A DNA stretch of 52,376 nucleotides, taken from Bacteroidaceae bacterium. GTDB taxonomy: Bacteria > Bacteroidota > Bacteroidia > Bacteroidales > Bacteroidaceae. The position numbers and the translations under genes were made by a program. Of this stretch, positions 364-51,946 are shown piece after piece. The stretch is from assembly GCA_017617635.1 (NCBI GenBank), contig JAFZVW010000036.1, positions 1 to 52,376 on the forward strand. The letters run 5' to 3'. Within the stretch, counting starts at the first letter, position 1, and each line of letters begins with the position of its first letter. The notes beneath the pieces are model-generated. The model had not been told where the DNA came from. It did not search any database and saw only the letters and a list, made by a program, of their open reading frames with translations.

Positions 364-387
364 AACTTTTTAATCTTTTAACCTTTT
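364..387. repeat. Three-copy 8-bp repeat at the stop of the HU-like gene
   Basis: Three octamers occur in a row: AACTTTTT (364-371), AATCTTTT (372-379) and AACCTTTT (380-387). The stop codon of the minus-strand HU-like gene (387-389) abuts the array. Imperfect short tandem repeats next to stop or start codons recur in this window. Confidence 0.6.
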
Positions 388-971
388 CAGTCCATGTCGC
401 TGCCGGGGTTGCCACCGCCGCCGCCATTGTTGTCTCCGCCTTCACCGCCGGGGTTCTCTGGCGTCTCGGGGTTCTCGCCGCCGGTGCCGGGGTCAGGAGT
501 TTCACTTCCCTCGCCCTGAGGAGAGGGGTCGGGGGTGAGGCTATCTGGAGAGGGGCTGCCGCCTTCTTCGGCATCCTGTTGGCCCTCGGCGGTCGGAACC
601 TCGACGAAGCGGAATTCACGTTCGTTGTTCAGACGCGAGTTGAGTTCGACATCAGGTTCGAAGACTACGCTGATTTTTGCACCGACGCTTGTCACTTCCT
701 TCTTCTCTTTCTGGCTCTTGCCGCTCACCTTCAGCTTGAACGTACCCAGACCGTCGATGTGGACTGCGTTGCCGTTAAGCAATTCGTCGATGATGGACTG
801 TGGAAAGTCGGCAAACACGCCGTTTACTTCACCGACAGAGAAAGTTGAACCTCGAGCCATGCGCTTTGCCAGCTGCGTCTCGTTCACTGTTGATACACGT
901 GTCCACTGCGGGAAATAGATAGTGGACTTGTCCTGTGGGTTAGTACCCTTCTTTCTGATTAATGAAATCAT
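387..971 (-). CDS. HU-like DNA-binding protein with low-complexity tail
   Basis: A 194-aa protein. Residues 1-125 resemble the Bacteroidota HU-related DNA-binding proteins: an N-terminal helix pair, then a beta arm containing IDGLGTFKLKVSGKS. Residues 128-194 are a Pro/Glu/Gly/Asn-rich tail ending GGNPGSDMD. HU relatives bend DNA without strong sequence preference; this group is expanded in Bacteroides and Prevotella and its exact role is unknown. The tail contains LTPDPSPQGEG, the translation of a widespread GC-rich intergenic repeat, so a repeat seems to have been captured by the gene. The last five residues, GSDMD, are shared with the 413-aa protein at 49356-50597. A likely promoter at 1182-1189 puts a repeat array (1014-1167) in its leader. 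Confidence 0.8.
   Translation of the reverse strand: MISLIRKKGTNPQDKSTIYFPQWTRVSTVNETQLAKRMARGSTFSVGEVNGVFADFPQSIIDELLNGNAVHIDGLGTFKLKVSGKSQKEKKEVTSVGAKISVVFEPDVELNSRLNNEREFRFVEVPTAEGQQDAEEGGSPSPDSLTPDPSPQGEGSETPDPGTGGENPETPENPGGEGGDNNGGGGGNPGSDMD
508..540. repeat. GC-rich REP-like element inside the HU-like gene
   Basis: On the plus strand this segment reads ccctcgccctgaggagaggg followed by gtcgggggtgagg. Read on the minus strand it encodes TPDPSPQGEG. This is the well-known translation of a short GC-rich repeat scattered through many bacterial genomes. Its position in the low-complexity tail suggests it was inserted in frame. Confidence 0.6.
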
Positions 972-1013
972 GATACATTGTTTTTAAAAGGTTAATAAAT
1001 AGTGGTTATTTAG

Positions 1014-1167
1014 AGTCATCCGTATATCTTTTTCAGATGATGCGGATGATTTGCTCAAATGATGCGGATGATTTGCCTCGATGATGCGCATGATTTGATT
1101 GAATGATGCGCATGATTTATTCTGATGATGCTGATGGTGTATTTGAATCATATGCAATACCTGTTTT
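1014..1167. repeat. 22-bp tandem array upstream of the HU-like gene
   Basis: Five clear direct repeats start at 1036, 1058, 1080, 1102 and 1124, each exactly 22 bp apart, with core RATGATGCGSATGATTTG (the fifth has decayed). Degenerate units flank them at 1014 and 1146. The first base alternates G, A, G, A, G. Units 3 and 4 contain the palindrome ATGCGCAT. Twenty-two bp is about two helical turns, so each unit would present the same DNA face. The array lies between the likely promoter (1182-1189) and the start codon (971), so it would also be transcribed as leader RNA. It could be a cooperative operator or a structured leader. Confidence 0.85.
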
Positions 1168-41225: not shown

Positions 41226-41947
41226 ATTATAACCGCATTCCGGCTCATGTAGCCATGATTATGGACGGCAACGGCCGTTGGGCAAAAGCCAAGGGCCTGC
41301 CACGTACTGCAGGTCACGTCGAGGGTATTGCCAGGGTAAAACAGATTACCGAGGAGTCTGCACGCCTCGGCATAAAGTACCTGACTGTATATGCCTTCAG
41401 TACCGAGAACTGGAATCGCCCGATGCAAGAGGTAGAGACACTTATGAACCTCATCCTTACCAATCTGGAGGAAGAGATTTTCATAAAGAACAACGTACGT
41501 TTCCGGGTTATTGGCGATATGAGCCGACTGTCCGAAACTATCAGGAAACGCCTGCAGGATTGTATAGACCATACTGCAGCAAATACAGGCATGACTATGG
41601 TCGTAGCCCTGAGCTACAGCAGTCGCTGGGAGATTACGAATGCCGCCAGGCAGATTGCCGACGAGGTTAAGGCAGGCAAACTTAAAGCCGAGGATATCGA
41701 CGACGAATGCATCTCCCGTCACCTGACCACCGGTTTAATACCCGATCCCGACCTGCTGATACGCACAGGCGGCGAATTGCGAATCAGCAACTTCCTGCTG
41801 TGGCAGTGTGCATATACCGAATTCTACTTCACGGACGAATTCTGGCCGGACTTCAATGTGGAATCGCTGCATCGAGCCATTATTGACTATCAGCAGAGAC
41901 AGCGCCGTTTCGGCAAAACTGGAGAACAAGTAACAAATGAAGAATAA
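41213..41947 (+). CDS. uppS: Undecaprenyl diphosphate synthase
   Basis: A 244-aa cis-prenyltransferase making the C55 lipid carrier for peptidoglycan and surface glycans. [17 protein letters not shown] (catalytic Asp), STENWNRP and [15 protein letters not shown] are present. It overlaps both porG and bamA, implying coupled translation. Confidence 0.96.
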
Positions 41948-44579
41948 GATACACTATATTGTTCTTGCTGCCATCATGTGGCTGGCTGCTGCACCTCTCA
42001 TGGCGCAGTATGCCGACAAGGATACTACGGTTACAATCGACTATAGCCGTACTCCTCGCCGTGTTGCAGTCAAGCACATAACTGTCGAGGGCATACCCAA
42101 CTACGACGAAAGCCTGCTGGTACGACTGTCCGGCATTTCGGTCGGAGACTATATCTCAGTTCCCGGAGACGAGATTACGAAGGCCATCAGGCGCTATTGG
42201 AAGAACGGCCTGTTTTCCAACGTATCGGTAGCTGTTGACTCCATTGTCCGCGATTCAGCCTACCTGCACATCCATCTGGCACCGCGTCCGCGAATCTCCC
42301 AGATCAACTACAACGGGGTCCGCAAAAGCGAGAAGACCGAGCTGCAGGACAAGCTGGGTCTGCTCAAGGACAATCAGCTGACTCCAAACATGATTGACCG
42401 CGCCAAGATTCTGGCAAAGCGCTACTTCGACGAGAAAGGCTTCAAGAATGCCGAGGTAGAGATTCTCCGTCACGACGACCCCGCTGCACCAGACAAGGTT
42501 ATCGTTGACGTCAATATCGACAAGAAGGGCAAGATTGTTATCCGCAGTATCGACGTTATAGGCAATACCGTAATCAAGAACAGCAAGCTGAAGGGTGGCT
42601 GGTTCTCCAAGGGCGTCCTCAAGACCATACGCGAAAAGCGAGGCATCCGCAACTGGTTCCGCAAGCACAAGTTCATTGATGCCAAGTATCAGGAGGCAAA
42701 GACAAACCTGCAGGACTACTATGCCGAACTCGGCTACCGCGACGCCCTTATCATTGCCGATACGGTAAAGAGTGTCGGCGACAAGTATGTCGACATCAGG
42801 ATTTACGTCGAGGAAGGCCAGAAATACTATCTGCGTGACATCAACTGGGTAGGCAACACCGTTTACAATACAAACGTGCTGAGCCAGATACTCAACATGA
42901 AGAAAGGCGATGTCTACAACCAGACACTGCTGCGCAAGCGCCTTACATCCGACGACGATGCCGTGGGCAACCTGTATTACAACAACGGCTACGTCTTCTA
43001 TAATCTGGATCCTGTCGAAGTCAATATCGTAGGGGACAGCGTAGACCTGGAGATGCGCATCAGCGAAGGTCCCCAGGCCCGTATCAGCCATGTGAAGATT
43101 ACCGGTAATGACCGCGTATACGAGAATGTCGTCCGTCGCGAGTTGAGGAACAAGCCCGGCGACCTGTTCTCCAAGGAAGCCCTCGAGCGTTCGTATCGTG
43201 AAATCGGCTCTATGGGCCATTTCAACCCCGAAAGCATCAAGTACGACATTCAGCCCGACCGTGCCAACGGTACGGTAGACCTTGGATGGGGACTCGAACC
43301 CAAGAGCAACGACCAGATCGAGTTCTCACTCGGTTATGGACAGACAGGCGTAATCGGTAAAATCGGACTTAAGTTCGCCAATTTCTGTCTGGCCAACCTT
43401 TTCAAGAAAGGCGGAATGCGCCGTGGCATTATGCCACAGGGCAACGGCGAGACATTCAGTATCAGTGCCCAGACAAACGGCTCGTACTATCAGCAGTATG
43501 CCATATCATACATGAATCCGTGGTTTGGCGGCAAGCGTCCTAACACCTTCACCTTCAACGCATTCTACTACAAACAGACAGACGTAAGCGACAACTACTA
43601 CAATACCGCATACTACAACAACTACTACAACAATTACGGCTATGGCTACGGCGGTTACGGCTATGGCAACTACTACGACAACTACTACGACCCCGACAAG
43701 TACATCCAGCAGTTCGGCTTCTCGGTAGGCTGGGGTAAGCGTCTCAGATGGCCCGATGACTATTTCCAGTTCAGCATGGACCTGTCATACACCCGTTATA
43801 TGATGAAGGACTGGGCATATTTCTCGCTTATGACCAACGGAAACTGCAACGACCTGGCACTGAGGTTTATGCTCTCCCGTAATAGCACTGATAACCAGAT
43901 ATACCCCCGTCGCGGTTCGGAAATCCAGCTGTCCGTGGCACTGACTCCGCCATTCTCCCTGTGGGACGGCAAGGACTATGCAAACCTCGCCAACGATGCT
44001 ACAAGTCCCACATACCAGAAGGAAATGCAGCAGAAGTACCAGTGGATCGAGTATCATAAGTGGAAGTTCAAGGCACGCACATTCCATGCCCTCAGCAGTT
44101 CCAGCAAGTGTTTCGTATTCATGACACGTGCCGAGATAGGTCTGCTGGGACATTATAACAAGTACAAGAAATCTCCGTTCCAGACATACTACATGGGCGG
44201 TGACGGTACCACAGGCTCGGGCAGCATATACAGTACCGAGACCATAGGCCTGCGCGGTTACGACAACGGCTCCCTGACTCCAAGCGGACAGATGGGCTAT
44301 GCCTACGCACGCTTCAGTGCCGAGCTCCGCTACCCCTTCATCCTGGGAGCAAGCACCAACCTCTACGGCCTGATATTCGCCGAGGCAGGTAACGCCTGGA
44401 CGGATGTGGGCAAGTTCAATCCGTTCGACCTGAAGAAATCAATGGGTGTAGGTGCCCGCATCTACCTCCCCATGGTCGGCCTGATAGGTATTGACTGGGC
44501 ATACGGTTTCGACAAGGTACAGAACTCAATGACATACTCCGGAAGCCACTTCCACTTCATACTGGGTCAGGAATTCTAA
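41937..44579 (+). CDS. bamA: Outer-membrane assembly factor BamA
   Basis: An 880-aa Omp85 protein with a signal peptide, five POTRA domains (about 45-430) and a 16-strand barrel ending [10 protein letters not shown], with the usual terminal Phe. It inserts outer-membrane proteins. Around residues 552-590 a Tyr/Asn/Gly-rich stretch ([19 protein letters not shown]) sits in what should be an extracellular loop; other parts of the barrel look normal ([21 protein letters not shown]). Confidence 0.94.
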
Positions 44580-44637
44580 ATAGGACAATCCCTATGAGGT
44601 TTAGTAAAAACACCTTCCACGATTGCGATGCACGATA

Positions 44638-44645
44638 TACATTTG
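44638..44645 (+). promoter_or_regulatory. -7 box upstream of the first skp gene
   Basis: TACATTTG, about 30 nt before ATG 44677. It suggests the chaperone genes can be transcribed separately from bamA. Confidence 0.6.
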
Positions 44646-44676
44646 CATCAGTCGAATAAAAAAAATGTATAACACT

Positions 44677-45189
44677 ATGAAAAAGATTCTTTTTGCTTTG
44701 GTTGCCATGCTGGCAATGACAGGTACCGCCAATGCACAGAAATACGCCTTGGTCGACATGGAATATATCCTGAAGAACATTCCCGCATACGAGCGTGCAG
44801 GCGAACAGCTTAACCAAGTATCGCGCAAGTGGCAGGCCGAGGTCGATGCCCTGCAGCAGGAAGCACAGACAATGTACAAGAACTACCAGAACGAAGCCGT
44901 ATTCCTCAGTGACGAGCAGAAGGTCAAGCGCGAGGAAGCCGTTATCGCCAAGGAGAAGGAGGCAAGCGAACTGAAGAAGAAATACTTCGGTCCCGAAGGC
45001 GAGCTCTTCAAGAAGCGCGAATCCCTCATGACGCCCATACAGGACGAGATATACAATGCCATCAAGGACATTGCCGACCAGAAGGGCTACAGCATGGTTC
45101 TCGACCGTGCATCCGACAACGGCATAATATACGCCTCGCCCAAGATAGACATTTCCAACGAGGTCCTGTCCAAGCTGGGATACAATTGA
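44677..45189 (+). CDS. OmpH/Skp-family periplasmic chaperone (copy 1)
   Basis: About 170 aa with a signal peptide (MKKILFALVAMLAMTGTANAQ) and the Skp plan: a short beta start KYALVDMEYILKNIPAYE, a long Lys/Glu-rich coiled coil, then the beta return GYSMVLDRAS. Skp trimers hold unfolded outer-membrane proteins for BamA. First of three tandem copies. The start at ATG 44677 follows from the promoter and signal peptide. A seven-unit heptamer array begins right after its stop. Confidence 0.9.
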   Translation: MKKILFALVAMLAMTGTANAQKYALVDMEYILKNIPAYERAGEQLNQVSRKWQAEVDALQQEAQTMYKNYQNEAVFLSDEQKVKREEAVIAKEKEASELKKKYFGPEGELFKKRESLMTPIQDEIYNAIKDIADQKGYSMVLDRASDNGIIYASPKIDISNEVLSKLGYN

Positions 45190-45238
45190 TGTACGATGGA
45201 CAATGTACGATGTACGATGGACAATGGACGATGAACGA
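45190..45238. repeat. Seven 7-bp repeats between skp copies 1 and 2
   Basis: TGTACGA, TGGACAA, TGTACGA, TGTACGA, TGGACAA, TGGACGA and TGAACGA lie directly after the TGA stop. Consensus is TGKACRA. The array fills much of the spacer to the next gene (45270). Confidence 0.85.
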
Positions 45239-45269
45239 TTTATCTGCAATTTGATAATTTAACTATAAA

Positions 45270-45782
45270 ATGTTTAAGAAAATGAAGAAAATTCTTTTGG
45301 CCATCCTGTTGATGGCACCAATGAGCATGATGGCACAGAAGTTCGCTCATTTTGACCTGAGCCAGATTGTACCTAACATGAAGGAGTACACCACAGCTCA
45401 GAGCGAACTTGAGAACATGCAGAAGCAGTACGAGGCAGACCTCAAGCTCATGCAGGACGAACTGCAGAAGAAGAGCGAGGAGCTGCAGAAGGAAGGACCC
45501 AAACTCGTCGAGAACATCCGTGCACGCCGTGAGCAGGAACTCAACGACCTGTACCAGCGTTACCAGCAGAGCTACCAGGACAGCCAGCAGGCCCTGCAGA
45601 AGGCTACACAGGAGAAACTCGGTGCAATTACCGAGAAAGTTATGACTGCCGTCAAGAAGCTGGGCGAGGCAGGCGGATACATCTACGTTGTCGACACCAG
45701 CTCAGGTACCATTCCATTCGTAAACACAACACTCAGCACAGACATCACCGCTCAGATCAAGAAGGAAGTCGGTGTACAGTAA
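45270..45782 (+). CDS. OmpH/Skp-family periplasmic chaperone (copy 2)
   Basis: A 170-aa protein with a signal peptide and the same Skp plan (KFAHFDLSQIVPNMKEY, a Gln/Glu/Lys-rich coiled coil at about 45-130, GGYIYVVDTSSG). ATG 45282 (MKKILLAI) is an alternative start. Two tandem copies are usual in Bacteroidales; here there are three. Confidence 0.9.
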   Translation: MFKKMKKILLAILLMAPMSMMAQKFAHFDLSQIVPNMKEYTTAQSELENMQKQYEADLKLMQDELQKKSEELQKEGPKLVENIRARREQELNDLYQRYQQSYQDSQQALQKATQEKLGAITEKVMTAVKKLGEAGGYIYVVDTSSGTIPFVNTTLSTDITAQIKKEVGVQ

Positions 45783-45789
45783 TTAGGAC

Positions 45790-46329
45790 ATGATTGCAAG
45801 CAAGACATTACGCAGCATTGTCTGCATATTTTCAATCCTTGCATTCGGCATGGCAGCTCAGGCCCAGACAACTATACGTCTGGCAAGCCTGAGCCATAAT
45901 GCTGTAATGCAGCGCATGAACCAGTACCACGAGGCACAGAAGAACCTCAAGGCCCTGCGTGCACAGTACGAGGCCGAAGCCAAGCGCAGCGAGGAAGACT
46001 TCCAGCGCAAGTTCGTCGAATTCATGGACGGACAGAAAGACTTCCCCGAGACCATTCTGCTCAAGCGTCAGAACGAACTGCAGAATATGCTCGAGAGCAA
46101 CGCCAAGTTCCGTCTCAAGGTTCAGGACCTGCTCGCCAAGGCCGAGAAAGACCTTATGAACGATGTCAGGGCCGTTCTCATCGAGGCTGTTCAGGCAGTT
46201 GCTGCCGAAGAAGGCTACACCCTGGTGCTTAACACCGACGGCGACGCCGTTTCGTACATTGCCGACGGCATAGCCACCGACATCACCGACAAGGTAATGC
46301 GCAAGCTGGATATCTCTCCTGTTGACTGA
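45790..46329 (+). CDS. OmpH/Skp-family periplasmic chaperone (copy 3)
   Basis: A 179-aa protein with a signal peptide (MIASKTLRSIVCIFSILAFGMAAQAQ), a coiled coil and the beta return GYTLVLNTDGDAVSYIADG. It differs more from the other two copies (no DxxxIL-type start; instead IRLASLSHNAVMQRM), so it may have a distinct client set. The TGA stop overlaps the murI ATG. Confidence 0.88.
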   Translation: MIASKTLRSIVCIFSILAFGMAAQAQTTIRLASLSHNAVMQRMNQYHEAQKNLKALRAQYEAEAKRSEEDFQRKFVEFMDGQKDFPETILLKRQNELQNMLESNAKFRLKVQDLLAKAEKDLMNDVRAVLIEAVQAVAAEEGYTLVLNTDGDAVSYIADGIATDITDKVMRKLDISPVD

Positions 46330-47147
46330 TGTCCCCGATCGGAATCTTCGACAGCGGCTACGGCGGTCTGACCATTCTGCGCCAGATACGCAGGCTCATG
46401 CCCCGGTACGATTACGTATATCTGGGTGACAATGCCCGTGCGCCCTACGGAACACGCAGTTTCGAGGTCGTGTACGAATTCACCCTACAGGCAGTCAGGC
46501 GACTTTTCGACATGGGCTGCCCACTCGTAATCCTCGGTTGCAACACAGCATCCGCCAAGGCCCTGCGCAGCATTCAGCAGAACGACCTGCCCAAGATAGA
46601 TCCTACCAGACGCGTATTGGGCGTCATACGCCCCACTGCCGAGATCATCGGCAAAATCAGTAAAACCCGCCACGTAGGCATCTTCGCGACTCCCGGCACA
46701 ATCCGCAGCCGTACATATGATCTGGAAATTGCCAAGCTCTTTCCTGATATCCAGGTAACAGGCATTGCCTGTCCCATGTGGGTGTCACTCGTTGAAAACC
46801 GCGAATATGCAAGCCCCGGTGCCGATTATTTCGTCAAGAAACGCATCGACGACCTGCTTACCGCAGATCCCGATATCGATGCCGTGATTCTCGGCTGTAC
46901 ACACTATCCCCTGCTAATGGACAAGATACGCACATATATGCCCGGCGGAATCGAAATCATACCCCAGGGCAACTATGTTGCGCACAGTCTCCAAGACTAT
47001 TTAGCCAACCACCCCGAAATGCAGCAGCGCATCAGTCAGGGCGGTACAGCCTCGTTCTATACTACCGAATACCCCGAACAGTTCAACGAAAGCGCCTCCG
47101 TTTTCCTTGACCAGCCCGTCGAGGCACACAGGATAACCCTATCCTGA
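46329..47147 (+). CDS. murI: Glutamate racemase
   Basis: A 272-aa enzyme producing D-glutamate for peptidoglycan. The opening IGIFDSGYGGLT and the two catalytic cysteines in GCNTASA and LGCTHYPLL are present. It ends the porG-uppS-bamA-skp operon and overlaps the convergent radical SAM gene by 9 nt. Confidence 0.96.
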   Translation: MSPIGIFDSGYGGLTILRQIRRLMPRYDYVYLGDNARAPYGTRSFEVVYEFTLQAVRRLFDMGCPLVILGCNTASAKALRSIQQNDLPKIDPTRRVLGVIRPTAEIIGKISKTRHVGIFATPGTIRSRTYDLEIAKLFPDIQVTGIACPMWVSLVENREYASPGADYFVKKRIDDLLTADPDIDAVILGCTHYPLLMDKIRTYMPGGIEIIPQGNYVAHSLQDYLANHPEMQQRISQGGTASFYTTEYPEQFNESASVFLDQPVEAHRITLS

Positions 47148-48356
47148 TTCCTTCATTATATCAGCAGGCGGCAGTCCTGCATCCAGCTTTGCCTTCATCA
47201 TGTCCATATACGGTGCGACATGGGCAAAGAATGCCTTGTATCCCGGACACAGATAGTTTATTCCCGGCTCACCCTCATCCGTTTTGACAAAGCGGTTGCG
47301 CGGACATTCGCCGTGACAGGCAAATCGCCATTCGCACTGCTTGCACTTACTGGCAAGACCCTCCGTCTTCATCTTTGCAAATGCCTGCTGGCGCTCGCTG
47401 TCCATCATATCCAGGATGCTGCGGTTACGGATGTTTCCCAGTTTGTACTCGGGGAATACGAAATGGTCACAGCAATACACATCCCCGTTGTATTCCATTA
47501 CCGCTGCATGGCCGCACCAGTCGGACAATGAGCATAATCCCGGTGTGGCTCCCATCCAGTTGGCCAGTGTAGCGTCGAAAATCTGCACGAACATTTCACC
47601 GATATCCTTCTTCACCCACTCGTCGAATATCGTATTCAGGAATCTGCCCCAGGCATCAGGCGTAACACTGAACGGCGCCATGGGACAGTCCTTCTCGTCC
47701 AGCAGATGTGCCAGATGCCTGCCGTCCTCATGCCGGTTGATACGCTCAACTACCGGTGTAAACTGCAGATACCTGCATCCCGGTTGGTCACGGAAGAAAC
47801 GGTAGAATTCCAACGGTGCAGCAGCTGTGATATCATTCACCACTGCCATGGCGTTCCATTCCACCTCGTATCTGTTCAGCAGACGAATCCCCTCCATCAC
47901 CTTTGCCCAGGTAGGCTGTCCCCCGCGACGACGCCGGTAAGCGTCATGCATCCGTTCGGGCCCGTCTATGCTGATACCCACCAGCCAGCCCTCGTCATGC
48001 AGGAAGCGGCACCATTCGGGCGTAAGCAATGTGCCGTTTGTCTGCAGGCAATTGACAACTGTACGTCCTCCGGCATACTCGCGTTGCCATTTCACCACCT
48101 TTCTGTAATACTCCAGCGGACGCATCAGCGGCTCACCACCATGCCATGTGAAATTAACCTCCGTTGTATACTGGCTCTGGATATATTCACGTATATACAC
48201 CTCAGTCAGCTCGTCCGTCATTACATGCTGCACCCCCTTGGGGTACAGGTTCAGCTTCTCCAGATAATAACAGTAGTCACACGCCAGGTTGCAGTGCGCC
48301 CCGGCAGGCTTCGGCATCAGGTACAGCGGCCGCGAAAAAGGAAAGGCGGTATTCAT
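47139..48356 (-). CDS. anSME-type radical SAM/SPASM maturase
   Basis: A 405-aa protein. The radical SAM cluster motif CNLACDYC lies near the N-terminus (KPAGAHCNLACDYCYYLEK). TWHGGEP follows, and the C-terminal SPASM region has many cysteines (CSLSDWCGHAAVM, VYCCDHFVFPEYKLGN, CKQCEWRFACHGECP). This matches anaerobic sulfatase-maturating enzymes, which oxidise an active-site Cys or Ser to formylglycine. No sulfatase is in the window, so the client is elsewhere, or the enzyme acts on another peptide. Own promoter at 48379-48386. Confidence 0.88.
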   Translation of the reverse strand: MNTAFPFSRPLYLMPKPAGAHCNLACDYCYYLEKLNLYPKGVQHVMTDELTEVYIREYIQSQYTTEVNFTWHGGEPLMRPLEYYRKVVKWQREYAGGRTVVNCLQTNGTLLTPEWCRFLHDEGWLVGISIDGPERMHDAYRRRRGGQPTWAKVMEGIRLLNRYEVEWNAMAVVNDITAAAPLEFYRFFRDQPGCRYLQFTPVVERINRHEDGRHLAHLLDEKDCPMAPFSVTPDAWGRFLNTIFDEWVKKDIGEMFVQIFDATLANWMGATPGLCSLSDWCGHAAVMEYNGDVYCCDHFVFPEYKLGNIRNRSILDMMDSERQQAFAKMKTEGLASKCKQCEWRFACHGECPRNRFVKTDEGEPGINYLCPGYKAFFAHVAPYMDMMKAKLDAGLPPADIMKESG

Positions 48357-48378
48357 CGTATATAGTATATATGGTATG

Positions 48379-48386
48379 CAAATATA
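48379..48386 (-). promoter_or_regulatory. -7 box of the radical SAM gene
   Basis: TATATTTG on the minus strand, 22 nt before ATG 48356. Its -33 region overlaps the terminator of the upstream gene. Confidence 0.65.
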
Positions 48387-48392
48387 ACGAAT

Positions 48393-48431
48393 AAAAAGAA
48401 AAGCACCTCGTAACGAGATGCTTTTTCTTTT
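48393..48431 (-). terminator. Terminator of the outer-membrane protein gene
   Basis: The stem GCACCTCG/CGAGATGC (one mismatch) is extended by AAAGAAAA/TTTTTCTTT and has loop TAA. On the minus strand it ends in a T-rich run. Confidence 0.85.
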
Positions 48432-48448
48432 AGATGTGTTTATGAAAT

Positions 48449-49150
48449 TTAGAACTTAACACCAATCGTAAAGTAATGCGAAGTGTTCTTCCAGTTTGTA
48501 TCATACTCCAGAGCATAACCGAAATTAGCCTTCTCTACAAACTCCAGACCAACCCCCCATGACATAGCAAAACCATGGGTTGTGCCCCAGCCAGAAGCAA
48601 CATAAGCCCCCGCACCTGGAATAATTATGCCAACTGAGCCCTTAACTAAAGCACAGTCGTAACCCAATGCCAAACTGCTGTAACCACGACAGATCTTACC
48701 GGCACTTGTGTTCCAGAATGCAGGAGTGAAACCGCGTACACCAGCCTTGACGCCAATGGTCATATAATTGAAATTAAATGGTGCAGAGTAGTCGATGCTG
48801 AAGAAGTCAACAGCAAAGTATGGATTGTACTTCTTCTCCAGAGTGATATTCTCACCAAAACCGCCATGGCCGTAGCAGCTACCGACCTTTGTCGTAAACA
48901 TTACGCGTACACTGCTGTCGTAGTCCTGCTTTTTAGCGACTGTTGCAGTTTTCTTTGTCGTAGTTGCTGACTTCTTTGTTGCCGTTGCTGTCCTTGCAGG
49001 GGCGGCAGAGGTCTTCTTTACAGTTGTGCTCTTCTTTACAGCTGTCTTGGCAGGAGCGCTCTTGGTTTTGCTTGTAGTCTTTGACTGGGCACTTACACTC
49101 ATGGCAACAGCCATTGCCAATACTGTTACTAAAAATCTGAAGTACTTCAT
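48449..49150 (-). CDS. Outer-membrane beta-barrel protein with Lys/Thr/Ala-rich linker
   Basis: A 233-aa protein. A signal peptide (MKYFRFLVTVLAMAVAMSVSAQ) is followed by about 55 residues of only Lys, Thr, Ser, Ala, Pro and Val (TKSAPAKTAVKKSTTVKKTS), like the tail of histone H1. A C-terminal eight-strand barrel pattern follows, ending HYFTIGVKF. Such a basic linker could bind peptidoglycan, LPS or nucleic acid; no function is known to me. Its promoter (49183-49213) is preceded by a G9 tract. Confidence 0.78.
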   Translation of the reverse strand: MKYFRFLVTVLAMAVAMSVSAQSKTTSKTKSAPAKTAVKKSTTVKKTSAAPARTATATKKSATTTKKTATVAKKQDYDSSVRVMFTTKVGSCYGHGGFGENITLEKKYNPYFAVDFFSIDYSAPFNFNYMTIGVKAGVRGFTPAFWNTSAGKICRGYSSLALGYDCALVKGSVGIIIPGAGAYVASGWGTTHGFAMSWGVGLEFVEKANFGYALEYDTNWKNTSHYFTIGVKF

Positions 49151-49182
49151 AATATTTAATGTTAAAAGTTAATTTGTGATAA

Positions 49183-49213
49183 CAAATGTAAACTAATTTT
49201 TCATTCTATGCAA
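49183..49213 (-). promoter_or_regulatory. -33/-7 promoter of the outer-membrane protein gene
   Basis: TTG (49211-49213), a 20-nt spacer and TACATTTG (49183-49190) on the minus strand. A run of nine G (plus strand, 49220-49228) begins 6 nt upstream of the -33 box. Confidence 0.65.
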
Positions 49214-49219
49214 GAAAAT

Positions 49220-49228
49220 GGGGGGGGG
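49220..49228. repeat. G9 homopolymer upstream of a promoter
   Basis: Nine consecutive G on the plus strand (C on the transcribed side's non-template strand). It is the longest G/C run I noticed in the window. Confidence 0.8.
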
Positions 49229-49288
49229 TATTTAGCACAAAAGAACAATATTTGCGAAAAAAAGAACACTGTGAGATGAAAAACAGCC

Positions 49289-49310
49289 CCCTCCTGTGAT
49301 GTCAGGAGGG
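49289..49310 (-). terminator. Terminator of the 413-aa protein gene
   Basis: CCCTCCTG (49289-49296) pairs with CAGGAGGG (49303-49310), with a 6-nt loop and a T-run on the minus strand. Confidence 0.85.
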
Positions 49311-49355
49311 AGCTTAGTCATGTTACGCTGAAGCCAGCGCAGGGATCATTAATAA

Positions 49356-50597
49356 TCAGTCCATGTCTGAGCCGCCGCCCGAAGCCTGTGCAGTAATAGT
49401 GAACCATGTGCTGCCGCCACGATAAACCACCAGGCTGTGACCTGCCTCAACGTTCAGACCCGTGAACGATGCACCGTTGGCATTGTGGCTCGTGGGGTTG
49501 ATGGCATCGCCCGTGCCGTCAACCTTGGCAGTGAAGGTCACGTCATCCAGATTGCTACCGCCGACAGCCACCGTGGTGACAGGAGCCGTTGCAGTTACGC
49601 TGCCGCCTGCAATACTCTGCTGCACACCATTGATGGATGCCATGGTACTGTAGCTGGGCTGACCAGGTTCAACGCCGCCACTGCCGCCGCTGGGCGTGAT
49701 GCTGGCAGTACTGCCGTTGCCACCCTGGCTGGCATTGTTCAGGTAGTACTCCGACTCCAAGTCAATGTCAGACGTCATGTAGCTCCTCTCCATAGCCTCA
49801 GCCAGGCTGCAAAGGTCATCGCCAAAACCAGCTTCGTTGAGCACCAACTGACAATTGCTGCGGAACCACATGTCATCCTTGTTCTTCGAATGACTCTTGC
49901 GGCTGACGATGATACCGGCAGCGACAACAGTTCCGCCACGGCCAAGCACGAAGCTGAAGTGGTCCGTATCGAAATCGAAGGCCGAGAAGTTCAGTTGGTT
50001 CTTCCAGTTCGAGCATGGGAACTCACCCTGGCTGTTCACGATCTCGGTTGTCATCGGAGCACCGCTGCTGTCGGCATTGCGCGGGTTAAGCACGATGCGG
50101 GCATTGTTTACCTCGTACTTGCCATCCCGCTTCTGTACGGTCACGAACGTCAGCTGGTCACCACGCTGCAACCCCCAGGCATTGACAAAATCGGCGTATG
50201 TACGCCCCGGAGAGTTGACAATAGCCTTGTGGCCGCCTGCGGCATCGATGCTCACATGCACCTCGGGCAAGTGTCCATCTGATATAATGGCAGCGAATGG
50301 CGACCAGTTATTGCTCTCCAGCGGCATGAACTGGTAGAACTGGTTCAGGCTTTGTCCCAAGTTCTGCAGGCTTGCAGCACGCTGGCGCAGATACATCAGG
50401 TTCACCTTCATAAATTTGTTGGAAGACTTGGCACCTGGCGTAACACCCTCAAAGGAGTGATTGCAGATAGCCTTGAACATGGCGTAGGCTAAAGCTACGA
50501 CCTTTACCAATATACGCTGCAGGGTCTGTGCAGTCGTCTTGGGATTTTTTGAACGACGGCTTACTGTGCCGTCAGTCTTTAAAACAATAGTTTTCAT
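49356..50597 (-). CDS. 413-aa protein of unknown function ending GSDMD
   Basis: No signal peptide. It opens MKTIVLKTDGTVSRRSKNPK, then TAQTLQRILVKVVALAYAMF, ICNHSFEGV and RQRAASLQNLGQSLNQFYQF. This is loosely reminiscent of DUF6266-type proteins (NPxTxAQxxQR), which have no known role. A mixed alpha/beta body runs to about 285. A Gly/Ser/Asn-rich linker (NNASQGGNGSTASITPSGG) and an Ig-like beta domain (about 320-405) follow, ending ASGGGSDMD. The tail matches the HU-like protein at 387-971. The likely promoter (50890-50897) lies beyond an 11-bp periodic array, so the leader is about 285 nt. Confidence 0.7.
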   Translation of the reverse strand: MKTIVLKTDGTVSRRSKNPKTTAQTLQRILVKVVALAYAMFKAICNHSFEGVTPGAKSSNKFMKVNLMYLRQRAASLQNLGQSLNQFYQFMPLESNNWSPFAAIISDGHLPEVHVSIDAAGGHKAIVNSPGRTYADFVNAWGLQRGDQLTFVTVQKRDGKYEVNNARIVLNPRNADSSGAPMTTEIVNSQGEFPCSNWKNQLNFSAFDFDTDHFSFVLGRGGTVVAAGIIVSRKSHSKNKDDMWFRSNCQLVLNEAGFGDDLCSLAEAMERSYMTSDIDLESEYYLNNASQGGNGSTASITPSGGSGGVEPGQPSYSTMASINGVQQSIAGGSVTATAPVTTVAVGGSNLDDVTFTAKVDGTGDAINPTSHNANGASFTGLNVEAGHSLVVYRGGSTWFTITAQASGGGSDMD

Positions 50598-50659
50598 AGT
50601 TTTAATAAGTTAATTGTTTTACATCGATCATACCCTTGGATACGGTCTTGTCAGAGTTC

Positions 50660-50846
50660 CACACAGGGAGTTAGCTAGCATTTTCCTGGCGTCCCTCTAT
50701 AATTTCCCATGGAGTTCCTTAGAAGTTCTCTAGGTGTTCTCTAGGTGTAGGCTAGACATCTCCTAGAGATAACCTAGACATCATCCTGACACCATCATGA
50801 GTTTTTGTAGTCATCTGCATGACTTCTCCGTGACATCTCCGTGAGC
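50660..50846. repeat. 11-bp periodic array, about 17 units
   Basis: A tetranucleotide core recurs every 11 bp. CTAG is at 50675, 50730, 50741, 50752, 50763 and 50774, with variants CATG, TTAG, CTGG, CTAT, CCTG, GTAG and CGTG at the other expected positions from 50664 to 50840. The unit is about TYNYCTAGACA; two neighbours (50726-50736, 50737-50747) are identical. Eleven bp is one helical turn, so all cores face the same side. As 11 is not a multiple of 3, it is not coding. The rest of this gap (50598-50659, 50847-50959) holds only a promoter. Confidence 0.85.
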
Positions 50847-50889
50847 ATTACCTTCAAAGACCGCAGACCATCCAATTCGTGATCTGCCG

Positions 50890-50897
50890 CAAAGGTA
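50890..50897 (-). promoter_or_regulatory. Likely -7 box of the 413-aa gene
   Basis: TACCTTTG on the minus strand matches TAnnTTTG. It is the only good match between the upstream terminator and the gene and would place the whole 11-bp array in the leader. Confidence 0.5.
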
Positions 50898-50952
50898 AGG
50901 CGATTTTCAGGAGGCAGAAATTGAATGGAAAAGTTACGACAGGTTTGTGGAA

Positions 50953-50984
50953 ATAAAAAGTGAGGCCCCATATCGGAACCTCAC
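50953..50984 (-). terminator. Terminator of the 308-aa gene
   Basis: GTGAGGCCCC (50960-50969) pairs with GGAACCTCAC (50975-50984) through ten pairs including two G-U, with a 5-nt loop, then a T-rich run on the minus strand. Confidence 0.85.
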
Positions 50985-51019
50985 TGTATACAATATGGCG
51001 ACAAAGCTGTGCCACATTG

Positions 51020-51946
51020 CTATATCTTGAACTCATTAAGATTGTAACGCATATCCCGCAAATGCGTAAAGTACTCCGATGTGTGGAAAAAATGGCCGAT
51101 TTCGTGGAAAGCGTTCTGAAGAAAATTTTTATCTTGCTTGGGAAGGACACTGAAATCGATTTTAAGCCCGTCCTTTTTGGTGAAGTCCTCTTTGACATTC
51201 TTGTATGCCTCGGCATAGTTTGTGAATGTCCTGGAGGTAAATGTTACCTTCCAGTCTTTCAGCACTTGCTCCAGCAGGTAATTGCAGAAGGGCGTACGCG
51301 TTACATTCTTCAATATGCCTATGCGTATGAAGTAGTTATGCATCAGCAGACAGAAAGCAGGCAGTTTGTATTTCTTACCCATAATCTTGCAAGTATCCTC
51401 CTCGCCAAAGAAATGGATGATCGCCTTCATGATACAGTCTGACATGCTGACATCGTCAATGGGAGGAATGAAAAGACCTGAATCCTGCGGTGGCGTGTCA
51501 ACCTTATCACGTGCGAGCTGGCGGTTTTCGTTATACAGCCTCTCGGCGTTGCTTTTTATCCTATCCGTCAGGGTAATTATTGCAGTGTAAAGATTAGTTC
51601 TCTCAACTTCGGGCGATACTGTCAGACGGGCCTTGCGATATTTAGGGACTCTTGATAGTCTTGTGCGTCTTGGACGCGCACCTACTACTATGCGTCCCAA
51701 ATTGCCACCATGTCCACCTCCACCATGTTCGCTTGGAGCAAATAACACTGCCCCCTGCGTTTTGATCATCGACACCGTAAAACGGTCTTTGGGAATAGCT
51801 TCAATCTGACCCTTAGTCAGTTGCTGCACTACGACGGGCACATTGGGATTAGGCAGAAACGCCGTCCGTCCTGCCAGCGTCACCTTGGTCCCATGCATTC
51901 TGGAACGCGACAGCATTCCTAATGGATTTGTTCCTAATGCTTTCAT
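51020..51946 (-). CDS. 308-aa protein, unknown function
   Basis: I do not recognise this protein. It has no signal peptide. Residues 1-110 are basic and Gly/Arg-rich, with a HGGGGHGG stretch near 74-81 and ARPRRTRLSR. The rest is helical, with an aromatic-rich C-terminus (KDWKVTFTSRTFTNYAEAYKN...KKDGLKIDFSVLP). HEIGH (281-285) matches HExxH but no third metal ligand can follow in the 23 residues left. It has its own promoter and terminator. The neighbouring 413-aa gene and small peptide suggest an accessory locus of this group. Confidence 0.6.
   Translation of the reverse strand: MKALGTNPLGMLSRSRMHGTKVTLAGRTAFLPNPNVPVVVQQLTKGQIEAIPKDRFTVSMIKTQGAVLFAPSEHGGGGHGGNLGRIVVGARPRRTRLSRVPKYRKARLTVSPEVERTNLYTAIITLTDRIKSNAERLYNENRQLARDKVDTPPQDSGLFIPPIDDVSMSDCIMKAIIHFFGEEDTCKIMGKKYKLPAFCLLMHNYFIRIGILKNVTRTPFCNYLLEQVLKDWKVTFTSRTFTNYAEAYKNVKEDFTKKDGLKIDFSVLPKQDKNFLQNAFHEIGHFFHTSEYFTHLRDMRYNLNEFKI

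Follow-up and report, generated by a model that had tools for sequence, protein, structure and literature searches.

An 11-bp phased array in the inferred leader of a 413-aa gene of a Bacteroidaceae bacterium and its counterparts upstream of homologous genes

In the window analysed here (the whole stretch of 52,376 nucleotides from a Bacteroidaceae bacterium, contig JAFZVW010000036.1), a phased array of 11-bp units lies behind a promoter box and before a gene encoding a protein of 413 amino acids. The period of this array is conserved upstream of homologous genes without conservation of the array sequence, apart from a weak common unit. In addition, whole units have been gained or lost between some close relatives, and many of the arrays have inverted halves.

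The array in the window and its surroundings

The initial annotation had described about 17 units kept in an exact 11-bp period and had proposed autocorrelation and sequence shuffling as checks. Over positions 50660-50846, self-identity reaches 0.557, 0.515, 0.474, 0.483 and 0.462 at lags 11, 22, 33, 44 and 55, while all other lags between 2 and 59 stay at 0.18-0.29 (background about 0.25), so that peaks are found at multiples of 11 bp only. The sum over the first four multiples (2.03) was never approached by 2000 dinucleotide-preserving shuffles (1.016 +/- 0.069, maximum 1.31) and, computed on a 10-base grid, is the top value of the window, the runner-up being a 22-bp array (Table 1). The exact period is thereby confirmed: written as 16 rows of 11 from position 50673, the array keeps its core in a single column. 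The description of these cores as being of the CTAG/CATG type holds in part. Indeed, the six CTAG and three CATG of the array all share a single phase modulo 11, and the six CTAG are drawn from 11 in the whole 52-kb window, but these tetramers form the core of only part of the array, CCTG, CGTG, TTAG, CTAT and GTAG being found at other units. Tandem Repeats Finder detects the array only as short fragments. It does not have the organisation of a CRISPR array, as its units abut without spacers and drift in sequence. Its edges could be set at 50675-50847 by a copy of 91% identity elsewhere in the genome. A further feature, absent from the initial annotation, is the dyad of the array, whose halves are imperfectly complementary; it scores 13.2, whereas none of 30 unit-order shuffles exceeded 11.7.

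Table 1. Coordinates of the features in the window and of the distal arrays at five homologous loci (the latter numbered within the locus)
Feature	Positions	Strand	Remarks
11-bp periodic array, about 16 units	50672-50847	-	within the inferred leader; dyad centred at 50753.5
Bacteroidota-type -7 box TACCTTTG	50890-50897	-	from sequence; at -33, TTTC instead of exact TTTG
Inferred 5' leader, 286 nt, containing the array	50598-50883	-	inferred from the -7 box
413-aa gene downstream of the array	49356-50597	-	no family found
308-aa gene directly upstream, same direction	51020-51946	-	no Pfam or NCBIfam match
Second phased array, period 22 (2 x 11)	1007-1151	-	TAnnTTTG box on one side, HU-related gene (387-971, minus strand) on the other
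Distal array, L143	4780-5082		
Distal array, L148	4828-5142		
Distal array, L142	4720-4939		
Distal array, L147	4856-4951		
Distal array, L138	4816-4903		

On the minus strand, the -7 box is followed by the array and then by the start codon of the 413-aa gene, 74 bp beyond the array end, and the array was thus correctly placed between a likely promoter and this gene. TAnnTTTG is the Bacteroides -7 consensus and, judging from the box, transcription would start near 50883. A coding explanation of the array was rejected because 11 is not divisible by 3 and stops occur in all three leader frames. The 413-aa protein has no match in Pfam, NCBIfam or PHROGs and no PDB match better than E 0.058; its predicted structure, of low confidence (mean pLDDT 63), consists of two N-terminal helices, a mixed middle part and a C-terminal beta domain. 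The product of the 308-aa gene gave weak PHROGs matches only (best E 0.0075), to entries of unknown function. Among the eight neighbouring proteins encoded at 41937-51946, Pfam recognised no DNA-binding family, and those of 413, 308 and 233 aa matched no Pfam family at all. The neighbours of the 413-aa gene vary among species. A plasmid origin of this gene was rejected, as a plasmid collection gave no match, and so was a phage origin, the one distant match (25%) belonging to an unannotated phage record, of which 6,955 bases were retrieved and contain no array.

Arrays upstream of homologous genes

A DNA search with the window array gave matches in its own genome only (two further ones, at 91% and, for a partial match, 69%) and none in 60 relatives. 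The 413-aa protein was matched in 17 of 139 genus genomes, the own genome included, and 56 homologue loci (named genomes, 14-sequence alignment) were collected from MAGs of ruminant Prevotellaceae, Bacteroidaceae, Bacteroidales and Prevotella. With L172 omitted for its partial match, 55 of these were scanned over 500 nt upstream of the match, an array being called at z 6 for a period of 11 or 22 bp. This threshold was passed by 48 loci, of which L146 was set aside with 68 N among its 560 bases. An array is thus present in 47 of 54 usable upstream regions, which are not independent, several being from a single genome and many sharing common ancestry. The best period is 11 in 46 of them and 22 in one (L144), and periods 7-10 and 12-21 never rise above z 4.9. 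Upstream regions of other genes, taken at 31 loci picked among the array-bearing ones, reached z 6 in 2 of 190 cases, both at 22; heptads are commoner there (12 at period 7). Given this choice of loci, the arrays detected at all 31 of them carry no weight of their own. The initial annotation had argued that period is kept better than sequence, and had named homologous loci lacking any 11-bp period as evidence to the contrary. The arrays found here, whose letters differ, give good support to the argument and extend it across species. In two of the relatives (G030 and G033), for instance, an 11-bp array of other letters precedes the 413-aa homologue, though the DNA search had found nothing there.

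The seven misses are L138 (z 5.2), L142, L143, L147, L148, L167 (z 5.6) and L171. Five of them carry an 11- or 22-bp array some 0.9-1.1 kb further upstream (Table 1), and the one inspected among these five, that of L143, precedes the preceding gene. At another locus, L117, pieces of a group II intron (Rfam; 48-155 and 689-766) were observed upstream of the 413-aa homologue.

For the anatomy of the arrays, 51 of the 56 loci were taken on (without L142, L146, L147, L171 and L172) and L138, L143, L148 and L149 were then dropped. The resulting 47 arrays, which we grouped into 30 orthologues and 17 paralogues, differ from the 47 of the period scan by including L167 (sub-threshold in the scan) and leaving out L149 (above threshold). 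As these arrays were excised by lag-11 similarity, the observation that 11 is the best of lags 8-14 in 47 of 47 is partly circular, and the period claim therefore rests on the scan of whole upstream regions. As in the window, a box stands shortly upstream of most arrays: among 46 of the 51 loci (L138, L143, L148, L156 and L163 being left out), TAnnTTTG occurs within 100 nt upstream exactly in 38 and with at most one mismatch in 44, against 5% exact in random windows. In paralogues this box begins 9-18 nt before the array, which places the array start at about the transcription start, whereas for orthologues whose box is exact the corresponding distance is 26-81 nt. From the array end to the start codon, 44-57 nt were measured in 13 of 18 orthologues and 73-138 nt in the other five.

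The pooled orthologue unit, A A C T C [ACT] [AT] [AG] T N G, holds 6.58 bits (30 arrays; 2.86-2.98 in five column-permuted controls), and the first-half unit of the paralogues, CTCYARTWCAT, 4.18 bits (17 arrays; 2.89-3.06 column-permuted). These values show a weak unit common to the arrays, of about AASTC-N5-G. When the orthologue matrix is run along the arrays, it reads sense throughout in 26 of 30 orthologues, sense and then antisense in 15 of 17 paralogues, and sense throughout in the remaining two. A gapless dyad beating all 30 unit-order shuffles was obtained in 22 of 52 arrays, that of the window among them, and dyad arms span up to 96 positions in L048 and 78 in L040, two arrays described below.

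Close relatives illustrate how the arrays change. L124 and L126 are separated by a single mismatch and a single 11-nt gap, and L140 and L141 by three mismatches and two 11-nt gaps. Among similar leaders, with array and flank gaps pooled, 51 of 244 gaps measure 11, 22, 33 or 44 nt (33 are of 11 and 15 of 22), 63 are of 1 nt, and the rest are mixed, many of them short. The 91% copy of the window array resembles it within the array edges only, and is flanked by genes that we take, by eye, to be CCA-transferase-like and leucine-rich-repeat-like. No array is present at the site of this copy in G067, whose 413-aa protein is the closest among the relatives, and the CCA-like gene of G117 adjoins a 413-aa homologue that has a different array.

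Arrays elsewhere in the bacterial family

The window locus is not unique and represents one of a class of arrays. In a wider scan (threshold z 7, period 11 or 22), the own genome contained 20.9 arrays per Mb (431 kb), a biased rate as its contigs were partly chosen after hits. Two genus samples gave 55.5 per Mb (378 kb, 13 genomes) and 41.0 per Mb (391 kb, 17 genomes, with 8 of 20 stretches on contigs known from earlier hits but away from those hits), and other genera of the family 30.2 per Mb (763 kb, 27 genomes, 18 genera, some contigs being drawn from an earlier list). At the same threshold, no array was found in 325 kb from other families of the order (13 genomes; one weak 22-bp array at z 6.5) and none at 11 or 22 in shuffled sequences.

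Considering all periods, the own, genus and family samples contain 145 arrays, of which 69 have a period of 22 (61) or 11 (8, five of them in the own genome). The remainder includes 27 heptads, 12 arrays of period 21 (some of which look coding), 7 of 9, 4 of 12 and 3 of 10. The 22-bp arrays are unrelated in sequence and often dyad-symmetric. Across all 61, arms match better within than between units (0.62 versus 0.575, p 6e-5, with the axis fitted on the same data). Concerning location, among the 69 with a period of 11 or 22, 12 fall in naive ORFs, 5 at edges and 52 elsewhere, the latter between convergent (20), tandem (20) or divergent (12) genes, compared with 20, 55 and 26% for random intergenic positions. 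A promoter link of the non-leader arrays was rejected, with 6 of 89 against 5.9-10.5% at random positions, the 89 including the array of the window, whose called segment ends too far from the box to count.

Several arrays were observed individually. In L048 (18591-18934), a 344-bp array in 11-bp register with a dyad centre lies directly behind an AbiEi/AbiEii-like gene pair (Pfam). In L040 (6240-6408), an 11-bp array with a dyad separates convergent genes, its inner arms pairing perfectly around a short centre. The 11-bp array of L170 (5094-5183) ends in a TATCTTTG box and is located upstream of a promoter, not in a leader. Short arrays of the own genome in L022 and L028 share, by eye, a common sequence in inverse orientation, one of them ending beside an apparent tRNA gene. 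Two HU-related genes of the genome have 22-bp arrays upstream, one at 1007-1151 of the window and one seen in L007 and L043, which are one locus. Heptad arrays of differing sequence are frequent in the genus, often near gene ends, and two occur in the window (45188-45239 and 1761-1810). Finally, two period-10 arrays of the genus (L237, 7484, with CCTAGG-like cores, and L235, 1089) show that no strict 11-bp rule applies beyond the leaders.

Possible readings of the array

Our tentative preference is for DNA sites, along which a protein would oligomerise in 11-bp steps and tune transcription. The sites would be double-stranded, one per 11 bp, and the protein would bind side by side at this fixed step on an array beginning at, or tens of bp past, the inferred transcription start. 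Since the array follows that start and ends, in most measured orthologues, shortly before the start codon, such a filament would regulate the 413-aa gene by blocking or tuning either initiation or early elongation. The initial annotation had left the choice between a protein filament on one DNA face and a repeated RNA element. Of these, DNA sites fit better: in 15 of the 17 paralogues the unit turns from sense to antisense, which a double-stranded site permits, the arms show no excess of G.U pairs, and folds are equal on both strands. The single face is doubtful: an 11-bp step kept over 344 bp, as in L048, would rotate by more than one turn on relaxed DNA of 10.5 bp. Helical phasing on relaxed DNA is accordingly not the whole reason, and protein contacts or an underwound helix may fix the step. 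Several observations speak against DNA sites. None of the eight scanned neighbours belongs to a recognised DNA-binding family, and the position of the arrays, always past the start, suits an RNA function equally. The unit is weak, the orthologue arrays are related by descent, and 30 of 52 arrays have no dyad beyond that of shuffles. The letters vary so strongly that a single protein of fixed specificity would need to be very tolerant. Only about a fifth of the leader gaps (51 of 244) are multiples of 11 nt, those of 1 nt being more numerous, and L048 and L040 lie between convergent genes with no promoter box near.

An element of the leader RNA, consisting either of 11-nt sites in tandem or of a hairpin in which each A-form turn takes up one unit, and acting through an RNA-binding protein or on translation, seems unlikely to us. 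The arrays do lie within the inferred leader, with their end at a similar distance from the start codon in 13 of 18 cases, and dinucleotide shuffles of the window array fold less well than the array itself (z -2.86 for the + strand and -1.93 for the sense strand); against column-permuted versions, the sense z is below -1 for 9 of the 30 orthologues and 14 of the 17 paralogues. However, the mean fold z against such versions is the same on both strands (-0.71 and -0.80 in orthologues, -2.29 and -2.27 in paralogues). In the dyad arms of arrays scoring at least 12, moreover, 654 Watson-Crick pairs, 37 G.U, 77 A.C and 225 other mismatches were counted on the strand read, related arrays and two arrays of arbitrary strand included, and fewer G.U than A.C is the opposite of the trace that selection for an RNA helix would be expected to leave. 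An RNA hairpin was rejected for this want of wobble excess and of any difference between strands. The inverted halves also make sequence recognition on a single strand unlikely. A closing stem noticed by eye (CGGTCTT/AAGACCG in the window) was rejected as well, own flanks pairing like swapped ones (p 0.20, 5000 permutations, 31 leaders). No Rfam family matched the arrays of 12 scanned loci at gathering score, and positions 50400-51100 of the window gave only a sub-threshold mir-331 on the + strand (24.4 bits, E 0.022, the gathering score being 80). A mutational by-product is about equally improbable. Slippage or recombination would homogenise the units, quasipalindrome template switching would create the dyads, and 11 bp would come from the founding repeats or the enzymes. 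Whole units that come and go between some relatives, the arms of L048 and L040, which match best adjoining the centre, and the other periods among the 145 arrays, 10 and 12 in the sampled genus included, are consistent with this, but 69 of these arrays have period 11 or 22, and arrays recur behind the promoter box of one gene family, where the period is 11 or (once in 47) 22 and never 10 or 12, despite differing letters.

Still less likely is an element of curvature or supercoiling, in which phased repeats bend, 11 bp suits underwound DNA and only phase counts. Such a role would be in line with the periodicity of about 11 bp that bacterial genomes display and that two articles link to supercoiling, as an A/T periodicity strong in intergenic DNA (PMC4132750, PMC516772). 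The period is common to both cases, but there it is a statistical AA/TT signal, whereas here whole 11-mers repeat (lag-11 identity 0.56). In a wedge-angle model, the arrays are modestly more curved than their column-permuted versions (mean quantile 0.32 in 30 orthologues and 0.28 in 17 paralogues), an excess that suits curvature as well and to that extent weighs against DNA sites. Yet just 1 of the 30 orthologues and 7 of the 17 paralogues rank in the most curved tenth, the model has about 10.65 bp per turn, so that 11 is not its optimum, and a common unit motif exists. We consider it very improbable that the array itself is a mobile or recombinogenic unit: the 91% copy, confined to the array edges at a site that is array-free in G067, and the differing neighbours of the 413-aa gene argue for it, but this copy is the only one apart from the partial match at 69%.

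Known systems offer partial parallels to the arrays. REP/BIME and MITE elements are dispersed intergenic units with dyads, sometimes in tandem, each of one sequence family; the arrays described here have in common a period and often a symmetry, not a sequence, and that of the window has only two further matches in its genome. In the leader RNA bound by TRAP, tandem triplets follow each other at a step of about 5 nt; regular repeats in a 5' leader are common to both, whereas here the step is 11, halves are inverted and no RNA-level signal was found. A likeness also exists to parC of R1, the site of the ribbon-helix-helix protein ParR, where tandem direct repeats of about 11 bp stand at a promoter as they do here. 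According to parts of PMC9426499, ParR needs at least two of these 11-bp repeats, the DNA wraps around it, and repeat sequences vary between systems. Unlike parC, our array is on a chromosomal contig of a MAG and is one of several per genome with unrelated letters, and many of the arrays have inverted halves. Pfam found no parM (actin-like) or parR (ribbon-helix-helix) product among the eight neighbouring proteins, three of which have no Pfam family and could include an unrecognised one. By analogy, the protein that we tentatively propose would work on the array like ParR on parC, without our claiming membership of that system. In the open-access literature on repeats of Prevotella, Bacteroides, Bacteroidales and Bacteroidetes, judged by titles and the start of abstracts and, for PMC5771137, by part of the text, no description of such arrays was found, nor any paper on DUF6266.

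The dispersed 22-bp arrays may belong to the same class as the leader arrays. We further suggest, as a rather doubtful extension, that the bacterial family may use a sequence-free DNA code (a pitch of 11 or 22 bp plus a dyad, the letters being free) read by a putative oligomeric nucleoid-like protein, with the leader arrays as its regulatory and the dispersed 22-bp arrays as its structural version. An element whose period and not sequence is conserved escapes alignment, as the empty DNA search in 60 relatives illustrates. If its cause is mutational, a process that prefers an 11-bp step before one gene family needs an explanation of its own; if a protein reads pitch and symmetry, the lineage has an undescribed regulatory or DNA-organising system, and the array may be a landing strip for a regulatory protein before one gene family of rumen Prevotella-like bacteria.
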